Part shown: positions 18,503-61,625 of the stretch, piece by piece
Numbering within the stretch: position 1 is the first letter of the stretch
How the letters are laid out: the number at the start of each line of letters is the position of its first letter
Source of the DNA: Gammaproteobacteria bacterium
GTDB lineage: Bacteria; Pseudomonadota; Gammaproteobacteria; Pseudomonadales; Azotimanducaceae_A
Reading direction: 5' to 3'
Assembly: GCA_012960755.1 (NCBI GenBank)
Contig: DUAT01000057.1
Coordinates: forward strand, 533,324 to 597,323
DNA: 64,000 nt
Translations under genes and position numbers: made by a program
Notes under the pieces: generated by a model
What the model was told of the DNA's origin: nothing
What the model saw: only the letters and a program-made list of their open reading frames with translations
The model's database searches: none

Positions 18503-20035
18503 ATGCCACCCAACATTTTGTGGATCATTGCAGACCAGCTCAGAGCAGACCATGTCGGGTTTGGTGGCAATTCCATTGTCAGGACACCCAATCTGGATCG
18601 TCTCGCGGCCTCCGGGACTGTTTTCGACCGGGCTTACGTCGCAAACCCAATCTGTATGCCCAATCGCTGCTCCATGCTCACCGGGCGCATGCCCAGTGCC
18701 CATGGCGTTGTTTTCAATGATCGTTCACTCAACTGGGGTGCCAATACTTTTGTCCGTAATCTGGGCCTGGCAGGTTATGACACGGCACTCATTGGTAAGT
18801 CGCATATCCAGCACGGCATGAGTCGTAATGTGGTTTTTGAGAACAAACTGGGCCCCACCATCGAAGACCCCTATCCTGAAGGCTGGGATGAACTGGAAAA
18901 TGCCGAGTTGTATTCCGCAGAAACAAGACCACAGGTGGAGGACTTCTACGGCTTCAAACACACTGAGCTGGCCATCGGACATGGCGATATGGTGATCGGC
19001 GATCATTTTCGCTGGGCACTGGGTAAAGGTGCCAAAGCCGAAGATCTGCTGGTCGAACCCTACCCGGATTCGCCTGCCCTGGAACGCTCTAAAGACTGGT
19101 GGCAGATATACAAGCCGGTACTGCCAGAGGAGCTCTATTCCACCACGTATGTTACTGAACGAATGTGTACCTGGCTGACAGATAACCAGCGCAAGGAAAA
19201 ACCCTGGGTTGCGCAATGTTCATTTCCCGACCCTCATCACCCGTTCACGCCACCGGGCAAATGGTGGAACGCTTATTCTGCGAATGACATGCCGATCCCC
19301 GACAGCTTCGAAGATTCGTTGCAGGATGCACCGGCCCATCTGAGATTCATCAGGTCACTGGAACCCCGTAAAAACTACGTGCAGATGTTCGGCCCAACCA
19401 GGGACATCGTCAAGCAGGCCATGGCGGCGGAGTTCGGCATGATTGAAATGATGGATCATTCTATTGGTAAGGTCATCAACGTACTCGAGACTTCCGGACA
19501 GATCGACAACACCATCATCATTTTCACCAGTGATCACGGTGATATGTTTGGCGACCATGGTCTGATGTTAAAAGCGACCATGCACTACCAGGAATGTCTC
19601 AGGGTGCCTTTGTTGATAAAACTCCCGGGCGCAACTGGAAAAAGGACGAATGCCCTGGCCAGTTCCCTGGACCTGTCATCAACCATGCTGGATTTTTGCG
19701 ATGTTCCCGGATTCATGGATATGCAGGGCGTGAGCTTGAAACCTGTTCTGGACGACAACTGCGCAACGGTTCGAGACCATGTTTATATAGAAGAAGATTT
19801 CCCACTGGCGATGCACGGCAGTCCCTTGCCACTGCATAGCAGAACCGTCATCACTGATCGGCATCGTTATTCCCAATATTCATCCGGCGATGTGGAACTC
19901 TATGACCTGGACAGCGACCCGAAAGAACGTGACAACCTGGCAATACCCGGAAGAGCCGATTCGCTTCGCGGTGATATGTCAGAAAGACTTAGCCGTGTAA
20001 TGATGTCCTACTCCGCCATGGGTACAAGCGGGTGA
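18503..20035 (+). CDS. Sulfatase, type I (formylglycine-dependent)
   Basis: A 510-residue arylsulfatase-superfamily enzyme that hydrolyses sulfate (or phosphonate) esters. The N-terminal metal site is NILWIIADQLRADH. The active-site signature C51-M-P-N-R-x3-LTG has the Cys to be converted to formylglycine. FTSDHGDMFGDHGL supplies further metal ligands. There is no signal peptide, so it acts in the cytoplasm, and the Cys-type site suggests oxidation by an FGE- or anSME-type maturase; none is in the window. The ATG at 18503 follows GGGAAG. Its downstream neighbour, the ankyrin lipoprotein gene, is convergent, 15 bases away. Confidence 0.9.
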   Translation: MPPNILWIIADQLRADHVGFGGNSIVRTPNLDRLAASGTVFDRAYVANPICMPNRCSMLTGRMPSAHGVVFNDRSLNWGANTFVRNLGLAGYDTALIGKSHIQHGMSRNVVFENKLGPTIEDPYPEGWDELENAELYSAETRPQVEDFYGFKHTELAIGHGDMVIGDHFRWALGKGAKAEDLLVEPYPDSPALERSKDWWQIYKPVLPEELYSTTYVTERMCTWLTDNQRKEKPWVAQCSFPDPHHPFTPPGKWWNAYSANDMPIPDSFEDSLQDAPAHLRFIRSLEPRKNYVQMFGPTRDIVKQAMAAEFGMIEMMDHSIGKVINVLETSGQIDNTIIIFTSDHGDMFGDHGLMLKATMHYQECLRVPLLIKLPGATGKRTNALASSLDLSSTMLDFCDVPGFMDMQGVSLKPVLDDNCATVRDHVYIEEDFPLAMHGSPLPLHSRTVITDRHRYSQYSSGDVELYDLDSDPKERDNLAIPGRADSLRGDMSERLSRVMMSYSAMGTSG

Positions 20036-56722: not shown

Positions 56723-58042
56723 TTACACTGACATTGCCACGAAAGGCGTCTCGGGTAACATCAGTTTAGTCGTCGTTTTACCATCAATCACATCCGCCAA
56801 ATGCAACAGGAAACTCCCGATTCCGGCAGCACCCTGCATATAGCCCGTTTGGGTTTCGATAAAGTCCGGCCTGTCGCGATGTTCCGCAGTTGCCCAGCAC
56901 AAACCACGGGACCCGTCCGCAGCACTGACCATCTGGCTGGCGGTGCGCCTGGCATAGTCAAGATACTGTTCTTCACCAGTCGATGCATATAAAAACAGGG
57001 CATAGTCACCAATACCTGCATCACCGCAACACTGACCATGATTTTGCCACAAGCCTTTACTCCGTTCTTCCGGTGCGCCGGTACTGAGCAACCCCCTGAA
57101 GTTTGCACCAATCCAATCAAGGTACGCCGGATCACCGGTAATTTCATGCAACAGCCACATCAGGCGGCCAGTCCCTGCAGGGCCGTGACAGACACCCAAA
57201 TAAAATGTTCTCGCAGGCTGCTGTTCTTCTGTATGGCAAACCAGGAAACCATCCGTCTGGGGTACGATTTTTGATTGCACATAAGTGGCTGCAGATACGG
57301 CCGCATCCAAGTATGCCTGCTTGCCTGTTTGCCGATAAAGGTCTGCTAAAAAATAACCAACACCAGCACCACCATGAGCAAAATTCGGCGCCGTAAAAGG
57401 AAAAGCCATATCGACCATCATCAGCCATCGCAGGCCGTTTTCAGTTTCTTGAGCTACTTCAAGCAATCTGTCGGCGGTTTTAGTTGCAAGGGCCAAATCA
57501 GGTGTCAGTCCCTCACGAAATGCGTACAGATAAATCACACCTGCACCTGCAGCACCGACGGACAAATCGATAACTTCCCGTTCACCCGTAATCCCGGTGA
57601 TATCAGAAAACGGGATAGGTTCTATCCAGCCGATACCGTTGCCAATGGCGCTGGATTGGGCAGTGAGTCGATCCAGGGCAATCAAGGCACCTTGCCTGAA
57701 TTGATCGTTTCCAGAAGCTTTGTAAAGCTCGTTCATTGTATAAACGTAGCCTGGCCAGCCACTGTAAAATCCGACCGTCACAAAAGCCTCATCCTCTGCT
57801 TTCGATCTTATGAAGGCGAGTAGTTCGTTTCCTGCTGCGACGGCCGTCGCCAGAAATTTTTCATTATTCGTCGCAAGGTAAAGCTCAATGTAGAACAACA
57901 CGACACCAGCACTGCCGTGGTAAAGAGAATGCGTGGGTTTACCATCTGGCACTCTACCCCAGGTAATTCCGTTAGCCACCTTCATCTCATTCGAGGAAAG
58001 GAACTTCTCTGTTTCGAGCGCGTAATCAAAATATTCATTCAT
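56723..58042 (-). CDS. LanC-like (alpha/alpha)6-barrel protein with CCG zinc motif
   Basis: A 439-residue protein made of repeated helical pairs with the Gly-rich turns of lanthionine cyclases: YHGSAGVVLFYIELY, AHGGAGVGYFLADLY (about 222-236), VCHGPAGTGRLMWLL (Cys285), QCCGDAGIGDYALFL (Cys338-Cys339) and GAAGIGSFLLHLAD. In LanC enzymes one Cys and a Cys-His pair bind zinc; here the pair is Cys-Cys, as in the CCG-type cyclases such as ProcM. No precursor peptide or dehydratase gene is nearby, so it may be a glutathione-transferase-like orphan or act on another peptide. It is divergent from the predicted selenoprotein gene, 99 bases between starts. Confidence 0.85.
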   Translation of the reverse strand: MNEYFDYALETEKFLSSNEMKVANGITWGRVPDGKPTHSLYHGSAGVVLFYIELYLATNNEKFLATAVAAGNELLAFIRSKAEDEAFVTVGFYSGWPGYVYTMNELYKASGNDQFRQGALIALDRLTAQSSAIGNGIGWIEPIPFSDITGITGEREVIDLSVGAAGAGVIYLYAFREGLTPDLALATKTADRLLEVAQETENGLRWLMMVDMAFPFTAPNFAHGGAGVGYFLADLYRQTGKQAYLDAAVSAATYVQSKIVPQTDGFLVCHTEEQQPARTFYLGVCHGPAGTGRLMWLLHEITGDPAYLDWIGANFRGLLSTGAPEERSKGLWQNHGQCCGDAGIGDYALFLYASTGEEQYLDYARRTASQMVSAADGSRGLCWATAEHRDRPDFIETQTGYMQGAAGIGSFLLHLADVIDGKTTTKLMLPETPFVAMSV

Positions 58043-58141
58043 CGTGTGATACTCCCCCGTAGACCCATATCAAGTCTGTTAAACGACATACACAAGACGC
58101 CTATAAAACGTGCATAATAAGCGAACTCCACAGGGGATGCC

Positions 58142-59020
58142 ATGAAACCACAGCCGATAGAATATATACGCAGAACCAGGGAAAACTACGACAAACTGGG
58201 GTTCAAACCCTACGACTGGTTTAGTGCTGACACTGATCCGGCGTTCGCTCGAATCACTAAACCCCTCAGCGAATCGAAACTGGGCATGATCTCTACCGCG
58301 GGTACTTATGTGCAGGGCCAGGTTGCTTACTACTATAAGGACGACACTGGCATTCGTTCAATCCCCAAGGATACTCCCATCGACAAGATCAGATTTTCAC
58401 ATATCATGGAAAATTATCTCGTTGAGGCACGCCAGGACCCCTGCACGGTATTCCCAATTGAGGCACTCAAACTACTGCAGCAGGACGGATTCATAGGTGA
58501 TCTCGCAGACAACTATTTTTCCTGTATGGGCGGTATCTATTCGCAGAACAGGGTAAAGACTGAGCTCATACCGAACCTTGAAACAGCTATCAATGAGCAG
58601 GCTATCGAAAGCGGCGCAATCGACCTCTTGTTACTGGTACCCTTGTGACCCGTCTGTCATCAGACCGTGAGTCTGATTGCACGTCACTTCGAATCAAACG
58701 GTTTACCCACCCTGATTCTCGGAAGTGGCCTCGACATTCTACAATCAGGGAAACCACCACGGGCCCAGTTTGTTAACTACCCCCTTGGATTCGAAGCGGG
58801 TCGTTTCCGTGACAAAAAAAATCAGTTCGAAGTCGTGCAACATGCCCTTGGGGGATTCGAAACCATGCTGGCACCAGGCATCAAGCCCATGCCTTTCGAG
58901 TGGCCACAAGGCTGGGATATGATCCGCGATCGTGAGAAAAACCAGCTTGATCAACGCAGCCCACGGGATACCACGCCCCAGTACCAAACGGAGCAGGACC
59001 GGGTACTTGCCGGGGGCTAA
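58142..59020 (+). CDS. GrdB-family selenoprotein (UGA-encoded Sec at codon 169)
   Basis: Predicted 292-residue protein of the glycine/sarcosine/betaine reductase selenoprotein B family (GrdB-like). The start ATG has AGGGG before it. Codons 1-168 (IEYIRRTRENYDKLGFKPYDW ... RFSHIMENYLVEARQDPCTVFPIEALKLLQQDGFIGDLADNYFSCMGG) end at TGA 58646-58648. The same frame then runs on without any stop to 59020 (PVCHQTVSLIARHFESNGLPTLILGSGLDI). Reading UGA as selenocysteine gives U-P-V-C-H, where Cys-containing relatives have C-P-V-C-H, a redox UxxC. A hairpin 17 nt downstream fits a bacterial SECIS. Its role as a reductase of a small substrate is inferred. No sel genes are in the window. Confidence 0.85.
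58659..58677 (+). promoter_or_regulatory. Putative bacterial SECIS hairpin
   Basis: AUCAGAC (58659-58665), loop CGUGA (58666-58670), GUCUGAU (58671-58677): a perfect 7-bp stem. The loop starts 17 bases after the UGA and has G at its second position, which is what bacterial SECIS elements need for SelB. A competing 5-bp hairpin GUCUG-UCAU-CAGAC overlaps it at 58652-58665. Confidence 0.7.
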
Positions 59021-59465: not shown

Positions 59466-61625
59466 ATGAAACTCGTATTCAGACTCTTTTTACTATTGTG
59501 TGTTTCCAGTGTAGTAACCGCCCACGCAAAGCCTCGTGTCGGTCTGGTACTTAGTGGTGGTGGTGCAAGGGGGGCAGCTCATATCGGTATACTACGCTAT
59601 CTGGAAGAACAGCAGATTCCCATTGATGTTATCGCAGGTACAAGTATGGGTGCCATTGTCGGCGGCCTGTATGCATCCGGCTATTCTGCCAATGAGATTG
59701 AAAAAATCACCACAGAAATGGACTGGACGCTCAAACTCACGGACAATGTTCCTCGCCAGGACAGATCCATCCAGCGTAAGCGGCTCGAAGACATATTCTC
59801 CATTCCCGGATATCCAGGGTTTAGTGAGGGTCAGATCAAATTACCTTCAGGTGCTATCCAGGGCCAGAATATTATCCTTGAACTACAACGTATCACCCAC
59901 CATGTGGCTGATATTTCAGACTTCAACAAGCTCCCAATACCCTTCCACGCCATCGCGACTAACATTGTCAATGGAGAAATGGTCCTGCTCGATCATGGAG
60001 ATCTGGCGGTCGCAATGCGGGCTTCCATGGGTGTACCTGCTGTTTTCGCACCAATTGTTATCGATGGTAAATTCCTGGTTGATGGCGGTGTCACCAACAA
60101 CCTGCCAATGGATGTTGCACGACAAATAGGGGCAGACCTGCTGATAGTAATCGATATCGGCTCCCCGCTCCTGGATCAGTCAAAAGTCAAAAGCTTCCTC
60201 TCGATCACCGATCAGCTGACGAGGATGCTCACCGGACGTAACTCAACAGAGCAGTTGGCGACACTAACAACGCAGGATGTATTGATCACGCCCCAGCTAG
60301 GCGATCTCACTGCCGGTGACTTTGCCAAAGCGGCAGAAGCGATAGCAATCGGCTACAAAGCTGCCGTTGCAGCAGCTCCTGAACTGGCGAAACTGAAAAG
60401 AACCGCAGGCTCCCACACTGCGATTAGTAAGCCGCAGCCTAGCGCCATGGCTGTTAACAAGATTACACTTAATAATACTTCCGGCCTGAATGATCAATTA
60501 CTCAACGACCTGATTAAAATTTCCAGCGGTGATACCCTCGACCTGGCTGTACTGGAAGTTGATCTAACAAGAATACATGGCCTTGGTAATTTTCAGCATG
60601 TTGGTTACAGCCTGATACATCGTGCCAACGGCGTTGATCTTGACCTGACTACAATAGCGAAATCCTGGGGTCCGAATTACCTGCATTTCGGCATCGAAGC
60701 ACAGAGTGAATTTGAGAATGACCTCAGAGCAAATTTGATCGGAGGATACACGCGTGAAGAGGTCACCGATAAAGGTGCGGAATGGACTTCCATTCTCGGC
60801 ATAGGGACTGATCCAAACATCGAAACCATCTGGTACCAGCCTCTAACCTATACCAGAGACTGGTATTTTTATTCACGTGCGGGTTACTCCGATGAAGTCG
60901 TTTCCGATTTTATTGGTGATGAAAAAATATCTGAATTCAGCCTTCGGCAGGCACGCATTTACACAGGGATCGGCTATGAATTTGGCCCGATTGCCAACAT
61001 TCAACTGGGCCTGAGCAGAACAACAGGCAAATTGGAAACGCAAGTTGGAGACCCGGCTATCCCTGATTCAGAATTTGACGATGGCGATATCAGCTTACTA
61101 TATCTGGTGGACACCAGAGACGATAGAGACTTTCCATCACGCGGGTCTTTAGTCGAGCTTCAGTTAAGTGCATCCAGAAAAAACCTCGGAGCCGATGAAA
61201 ATTATCAGCAGTGGGAACTGAGTATCGCCAAATTCTATGCCTGGGACAAACACAATCTGGGCCTGTCTACCCAGCTTGGTGGCACTAACGGATTCAGCAA
61301 TGCTGGCAGCGTTTTTCGACTAGGGGGATACGGACAGATAACAGGCCTCAGAACAGATCAGTTAAAAGGTAACTACAAAGGAATTTTGTCAGCGATTTAT
61401 TATCGACGCTTCGACAGCATACCCGTGGTAAACGGGTTCATTGGTGGAATCGCAGAATATGGGGGTGCCTGGGATAATAGAAAAGACATCAGCACAGACA
61501 GCGCCCTGTTCTCACTCGGAGCATTTGTCGCTGCAGAAACCCCCATTGGAACGTTACAACTTGGTACCGCGTTTACAGACCAGGGTGACAGTACCATATT
61601 TTCTCGTATTGGCAGGGTATTTTGA
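59466..61625 (+). CDS. Patatin-like phospholipase with C-terminal surface-antigen barrel
   Basis: A 719-residue type V secretion-like protein. Signal peptide, then a patatin domain with oxyanion GGGARG (31-36), nucleophile Ser60 in GTSMG and the Asp in VDGGVTNNLP. A POTRA-like linker (about 330-400) and a beta-barrel (about 410-719, ending in Phe) follow. This layout is that of PlpD, whose lipase is translocated by its own barrel. AGGAGA precedes ATG 59466; the frame is open 42 bases upstream. It would hydrolyse phospholipids at the cell surface. Confidence 0.92.
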   Translation: MKLVFRLFLLLCVSSVVTAHAKPRVGLVLSGGGARGAAHIGILRYLEEQQIPIDVIAGTSMGAIVGGLYASGYSANEIEKITTEMDWTLKLTDNVPRQDRSIQRKRLEDIFSIPGYPGFSEGQIKLPSGAIQGQNIILELQRITHHVADISDFNKLPIPFHAIATNIVNGEMVLLDHGDLAVAMRASMGVPAVFAPIVIDGKFLVDGGVTNNLPMDVARQIGADLLIVIDIGSPLLDQSKVKSFLSITDQLTRMLTGRNSTEQLATLTTQDVLITPQLGDLTAGDFAKAAEAIAIGYKAAVAAAPELAKLKRTAGSHTAISKPQPSAMAVNKITLNNTSGLNDQLLNDLIKISSGDTLDLAVLEVDLTRIHGLGNFQHVGYSLIHRANGVDLDLTTIAKSWGPNYLHFGIEAQSEFENDLRANLIGGYTREEVTDKGAEWTSILGIGTDPNIETIWYQPLTYTRDWYFYSRAGYSDEVVSDFIGDEKISEFSLRQARIYTGIGYEFGPIANIQLGLSRTTGKLETQVGDPAIPDSEFDDGDISLLYLVDTRDDRDFPSRGSLVELQLSASRKNLGADENYQQWELSIAKFYAWDKHNLGLSTQLGGTNGFSNAGSVFRLGGYGQITGLRTDQLKGNYKGILSAIYYRRFDSIPVVNGFIGGIAEYGGAWDNRKDISTDSALFSLGAFVAAETPIGTLQLGTAFTDQGDSTIFSRIGRVF

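Follow-up and report, generated by a model that had tools for sequence, protein, structure and literature searches.

An in-frame UGA and hairpin conserved across relatives mark a predicted PrdB-like selenoprotein gene in a gammaproteobacterial genome

Introduction

Does the TGA codon at positions 58646-58648 of a 64,000-nucleotide stretch of gammaproteobacterial DNA (contig DUAT01000057.1; hereafter the window) end a short gene, or is it read as selenocysteine (Sec) within a longer one? A first-pass annotation, made from the letters alone, joined two open frames of the same phase across this TGA and proposed a stand-alone selenoprotein of the GrdB family. Here we weigh this proposal against homologous proteins and loci, the conservation of the RNA hairpin downstream of the TGA, the distribution of the Sec machinery and a predicted structure.

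Results

Re-translation agrees that the two frames are parted by this TGA alone. The forward-strand frame 58142-59020 is open apart from the single TGA at 58646-58648, with 168 codons upstream and 123 downstream, followed by a TAA stop (59018-59020). With the TGA read as Sec (U), the predicted PrdB/GrdB-like selenoprotein gene encodes 292 residues with Sec at residue 169, in the local sequence LLLLVPL-U-PVCHQTVSL. Ahead of it on the same strand, an AGGGG at 58132-58136 resembles a Shine-Dalgarno sequence and may be the ribosome-binding site. The N-terminal half (58142-58645, plus strand, 168 codons) is recorded in the protein database as a piece of its own (P0002; 168 residues, 100% identical). 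The C-terminal half (58649-59017, plus strand, 123 codons), as read from its translation and homologs, carries a conserved YPLG region and Cys172, presumably the resolving cysteine of a UPVC motif. In related loci, tblastn matches cross the TGA and reach at most residues 1-292. The window holds seven TGAs with at least 100 open codons before them and at least 60 after, the one at 58646 included.

The same annotation described a hairpin that fits the rules for bacterial SECIS elements (bSECIS), with its loop 17 nucleotides from the UGA and G as the second loop base, and a rule-by-rule check agrees. The published rules call for a loop of 3-9 nt, a stem of 4-16 bp, a G in the first two loop positions, a distance of 16-37 nt from the UGA and an MFE of -7.5 or lower (PMC13188914). 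The hairpin at 58655-58681 (plus strand) has a lower stem (58655-58657 paired with 58679-58681), an upper stem of 7 bp (58659-58665 with 58671-58677) and a 5-nt loop, CGUGA (58666-58670), with G at position 2 and 17 nt between UGA and loop. Its folding energy is -9.9 kcal/mol over 27 nt, -11.9 over 45 nt and -10.5 with the upper stem constrained, and the bare 19-nt stem-loop gives -7.1. On its own, however, the hairpin is weak evidence, because 206 of the 2530 TGA triplets in the window satisfy the same rule set, 79 of them at -9.9 or better. Its fold is not exceptional: shuffled sequences fold equally well in 28 of 200 cases at 45 nt, 6 of 200 at 27 nt and 45 of 200 at 55 nt. An Rfam scan of the window gave no family over its gathering threshold. 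The case for a SECIS element therefore rests on conservation across relatives. The sole other long-framed TGA in the window with a strong hairpin (-16.6 kcal/mol), at 18725 on the minus strand, lies antisense to a 510-aa ORF (18503-20035), and we rejected it as a second selenoprotein gene and regard it as a chance decoy.

A protein-database search returned 332 matches, of which 120 were listed. Among these 120, short proteins of 160-186 residues account for 109 (P0002 included), and, judged from the protein sequences alone, every one of them ends in [VI]PL, one residue before the UGA site. The 11 full-length proteins among the 120 all carry Cys at residue 169, within CP[VI]CHQ, and some full-length relatives are annotated PF07355 in the database. 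A genome scan with two patterns taken from outside the site found 157 loci, and of the best 80 of the 157, 79 (L015 and L030 among them) have TGA at the site and one (L034) has TGC. The record titles of the loci name many Gammaproteobacteria or Alphaproteobacteria. Residue 169, which the first-pass annotation had expected to line up with the first Cys of homologs, thus aligns with Cys in 11/11 listed full-length proteins or with TGA in 79/80 of the best loci. Its statement that relatives have C-P-V-C-H holds for the listed full-length proteins, whereas among the best loci TGA predominates. It had also expected gene calling to yield two broken genes; the gene is indeed broken in the listed records, but mostly as the N-terminal piece alone.

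In a quick tree of 90 rows, from which two partial loci were left out, the window falls in a starred set of 12 alongside gammaproteobacterial metagenome-assembled genomes (MAGs), with a support of 95. The 12 Cys rows of this tree require at least four label changes, three of them forced by starred branches. Two loci titled Klebsiella pneumoniae (L061 and L069) are MAG contigs, and their records are probably mislabelled, because the tree places both with gammaproteobacterial MAGs.

If the TGA were a true stop, arising as a pseudogene mutation or a sequencing error, only a truncated protein would be made. The listed short database proteins do end at this point, and the hairpin taken alone passes at chance level in the window. 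Yet the same TGA recurs in 79 of the best 80 loci, and the frame beyond it is conserved: across 44 codons downstream of the TGA, the substitutions relative to the loci (n = 4459) fall at third positions in 2411 cases, at first positions in 1208 and at second positions in 840. The hairpin tells further against a stop, through both synonymous constraint and covariation. Normalised synonymous-codon entropy is 0.34 at codon 174, 0.05 at codon 175, 0 at codon 176 and 0.13 at codon 178, compared with a mean of 0.85 (sd 0.11) in 92 other conserved columns; these hairpin codons are nearly frozen at synonymous sites. Over 80 TGA sequences (71 distinct), 93.7% of the cells pair, whereas slid structures reach 21.7-43.4%; changes on both sides are seen in 31 cells, versus 13.3 in shuffles (0/500 as high). 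Two other measures on the 80 TGA sequences were not above shuffles, namely how many pairs show double changes (2; 159/500 as high) and further pair types (500/500 as high). Pairing fails often at columns 10/36 (29 of 71 distinct rows) and 15/31 (10 of 71), and compensatory changes turn CAG/CTG into CAA/TTG in 5 of the 71 and U-A into C-G in 26. RNAalifold predicts the identical apical stem from the same alignment. In two distant paralogues (L111 and L113), TRAVSAL replaces QTVSL and the stem is rebuilt around the loop CGUGA. We consider it very unlikely that this TGA is a true stop.

A different alternative is that the UGA is read as another amino acid, through a recoded code or through suppression by Trp or a near-cognate tRNA. 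Plain read-through of this sort would be expected to keep both halves conserved just as Sec would. However, homologs that lack the TGA have Cys in its place, and the hairpin is incomplete in six of seven Cys rows. The five-pair apical stem is intact in 100 of 102 TGA rows versus one of the seven Cys rows (L112), and the CGUG loop occurs in none of the seven, six of which were scored by the same procedure and one (L109) by eye at three pairs. The window's own patatin/Omp85 gene terminates at a TGA (61623-61625), which also argues against a recoded code, and across genomes the TGA forms track selB.

This last point comes from a survey of the Sec machinery. Among 32 relatives' genomes chosen from the 80 loci, selB was over cut-off in 29, selA in 30, tRNA-Sec in 26 and selD in 27, and the corresponding counts in 14 control genomes were 2, 1, 5 and 2. 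Of the four markers tRNA-Sec is the least specific, and we judge its cut-off unspecific because 5/14 controls are also positive. In every one of the 31 TGA-form genomes, two or more of the four markers exceed their cut-offs. The remaining genome of the 32, G027, which holds L034, carries the Cys form, and there none of the four reaches its cut-off, the best tRNA-Sec match scoring 46.6 of the required 47 bits. We also surveyed an even draw of 240 genomes from the class of G027 (Alphaproteobacteria by the title of L034), in which family matches at E <= 1e-30 occur in 23 genomes and selB in 31. Here selB is present in 14 of the 16 genomes with TGA confirmed at the site versus 17 of the 224 others, which include one genome (G158) with an N-terminal fragment alone (Fisher P = 1.7e-12, uncorrected for kinship). 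Two genomes, G043 (2.8 Mb) and G262 (2.6 Mb), have the TGA form and no selB match, and selB was found in none of the six Cys-only genomes (G027, G103, G141, G169, G175 and G229). A reading of the UGA as an amino acid other than Sec is, in our view, hardly credible.

Several observations on these genomes stand apart. In G127, a Cys-form copy (L099) sits beside two TGA matches, and selB is present. The Cys-form matches of G229 (L098) and G103 (L109) each contain one TAG within the matched stretch. In most of G001-G032, SelD is matched within a long open frame (~720-800 codons), which suggests a SelD fusion protein, and in three others (G011, G020 and G026) the SelD match carries one in-frame TGA. 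In the 64-kb window itself, no tRNA genes were found, and the relatives' SelA and SelB ORFs gave no match.

Based on these comparisons, we propose that TGA 58646-58648 is almost certainly decoded as selenocysteine. The UxxC centre of the first-pass annotation is upheld by the TGA or Cys at residue 169 in homologs and by the conserved hairpin. In the aligned sequences the UGA, the hairpin and the coupling between them are conserved, and Sec would presumably be inserted in the source cell as well.

The two halves form one continuous protein, as first proposed, but its nearest family is PrdB, with the GrdB-type models far behind. Among NCBIfam models, PrdB (TIGR04483) scores highest, matching residues 32-254 to profile positions 17-234 of 238 at 100.8 bits, far short of the equivalog cut-off of 300 bits. 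GrdB-type models (TIGR01917, TIGR01918, NF040794 and NF040795) score 14.8-23.8 bits, and the scores stay under the cut-offs for TIGR01917 (14.8 of 602.2), TIGR01918 (16.2 of 65.45) and PF07355 (GRDB; 15.2 of 22 bits).

GrdB and PrdB work together with partner subunits. This requirement is in part also described in PMC13188914. The protein could thus be a true D-proline reductase PrdB with its PrdA encoded elsewhere in the genome, as would fit both TIGR04483 being the best curated match and the name proline reductase PrdB that the literature gives to a marine UxxC family (PMC1088965, PMC2398784). Its score, however, is one third of the curated cut-off, and none of the genomes of six close relatives (0/6) has a match over that cut-off. 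Across the 32 relatives' genomes there were 0 matches to PrdA (TIGR04480), to the GrdE-type Gly_reductase (PF09338) or to GrdA (PF04723), searches in which no positive control rang. The neighbourhood likewise points to no fixed operon partner: for the 61 same-strand neighbours in relatives, any one family turns up at most five times, and a CoA-transferase-like ORF lies somewhere in the flanks of 15 of 81 loci. In the window, the gene sits between an adjoining LanC-like gene (56723-58042, minus strand; PF05147, 117 bits) and a Kazal-domain ORF, also on the minus strand, with the patatin/Omp85 gene beyond. A scan of seven neighbouring ORFs found no gene of the D-proline reductase; the first-pass annotation had described a stand-alone gene with no other grd gene nearby. 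On balance a true D-proline reductase appears unlikely. D-proline or glycine is an unlikely substrate because the reductase partner subunits were not found in the relatives; for the same reason, and since no neighbour family recurs more than five times, we favour a stand-alone UxxC reductase.

An AlphaFold2 model built from a 49-row alignment has a mean pLDDT of 94.6 and a pTM of 0.93, and comparison with solved structures found no good match. The model places a strand at residues 162-166 and then a helix at 170-185, so that residue 169 precedes the helix. Thiol and selenol redox centres are often located just before a helix. We propose that SelB carrying Sec-tRNA would bind the hairpin just 3' of UGA 58646-58648 and that Sec would be placed at residue 169, where it would complete a U-P-V-C redox centre. 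In the modelled fold, the Sec selenol, N-terminal to the helix, could attack an electrophilic substrate. The UxxC motif and the model further suggest that Cys172 would resolve the intermediate as a selenenylsulfide and that a thioredoxin- or thiol-type donor would re-reduce the enzyme. A 292-residue selenoprotein with Sec169, most likely a stand-alone cytosolic reductase, is with high confidence the best explanation overall.

Discussion

The family to which this gene belongs is badly recorded, given that 109 short relatives among the 120 listed matches lack the Sec residue. Because these proteins stop before the Sec codon, their entries are missing the catalytic residue and the C-terminal ~40%. 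The natural occurrence of Cys and Sec forms offers a ready system in which to test what Sec contributes.

Some of the genomes hold more than one match. Three (G112, G219 and G227) have 4, 5 and 4 PrdB-like matches, and five (G001, G002, G003, G004 and G032) have two each, in all cases with one in-frame TGA. In five genomes of the 240-genome draw (G112, G127, G218, G219 and G227), with 3-5 matches each, 18 of 19 matches have one TGA, its position being confirmed for fetched loci only. From these matches, the PrdB-like group is predicted to be a multi-copy selenoprotein family. In the class of G027, four paralogues (L100, L101, L114 and L118) read U-P-L-D-H-Q, keeping the Sec codon and the hairpin while the second Cys is replaced by Asp, a change that would leave Sec to act with no resolving Cys of the usual kind. 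We think it rather probable that the marine 'PrdB' selenoproteins are not proline reductases and instead make up a separate superfamily of Pseudomonadota selenol reductases that lack partners, catalyse an undescribed reaction, reach five copies in a genome and include some UPLDHQ members. If so, an abundant ocean selenoenzyme has been misnamed and its reaction is still to be found.

Among known systems, the GrdB/F/H component B proteins of glycine, sarcosine and betaine reductase are distant homologs, and the window protein is below all of their model cut-offs. It is also shorter (292 residues versus 431-435 positions in the GrdB-type NCBIfam models) and has UPVCH where GrdB has UxxCxxC (PMC13188914). 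Clostridial D-proline reductase PrdB (TIGR04483) is closer, with homology over residues 32-254 and the UxxC motif (PMC9312934), although the window protein scores far below the equivalog cut-off. D-proline reductase with UxxC appears in reviews of 2022 and 2026, and the motif is listed in PMC9312934. The closest likeness is to the marine PrdB of metagenomic surveys. The Sargasso Sea survey (2005) counted 42 sequences of a UxxC-containing 'proline reductase PrdB', which ranked third in abundance among the families (PMC1088965), and the Global Ocean Sampling (2008) placed PrdB among its most abundant families, where 235 of the sequences had Sec and 110 had Cys (PMC2398784; the word PrdA is absent from the main text of this paper). 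That family shares with the window gene the PrdB/pfam07355 assignment, UxxC, a bacterial SECIS element and abundance in metagenomes, and the window protein answers to its description in having UPVC, a SECIS hairpin and PrdB as its best model. Compared by description and not by sequence, the two would belong to the same subfamily. This kind of selenoprotein has been in print since 2005, and the gene reported here is a well-supported additional member.
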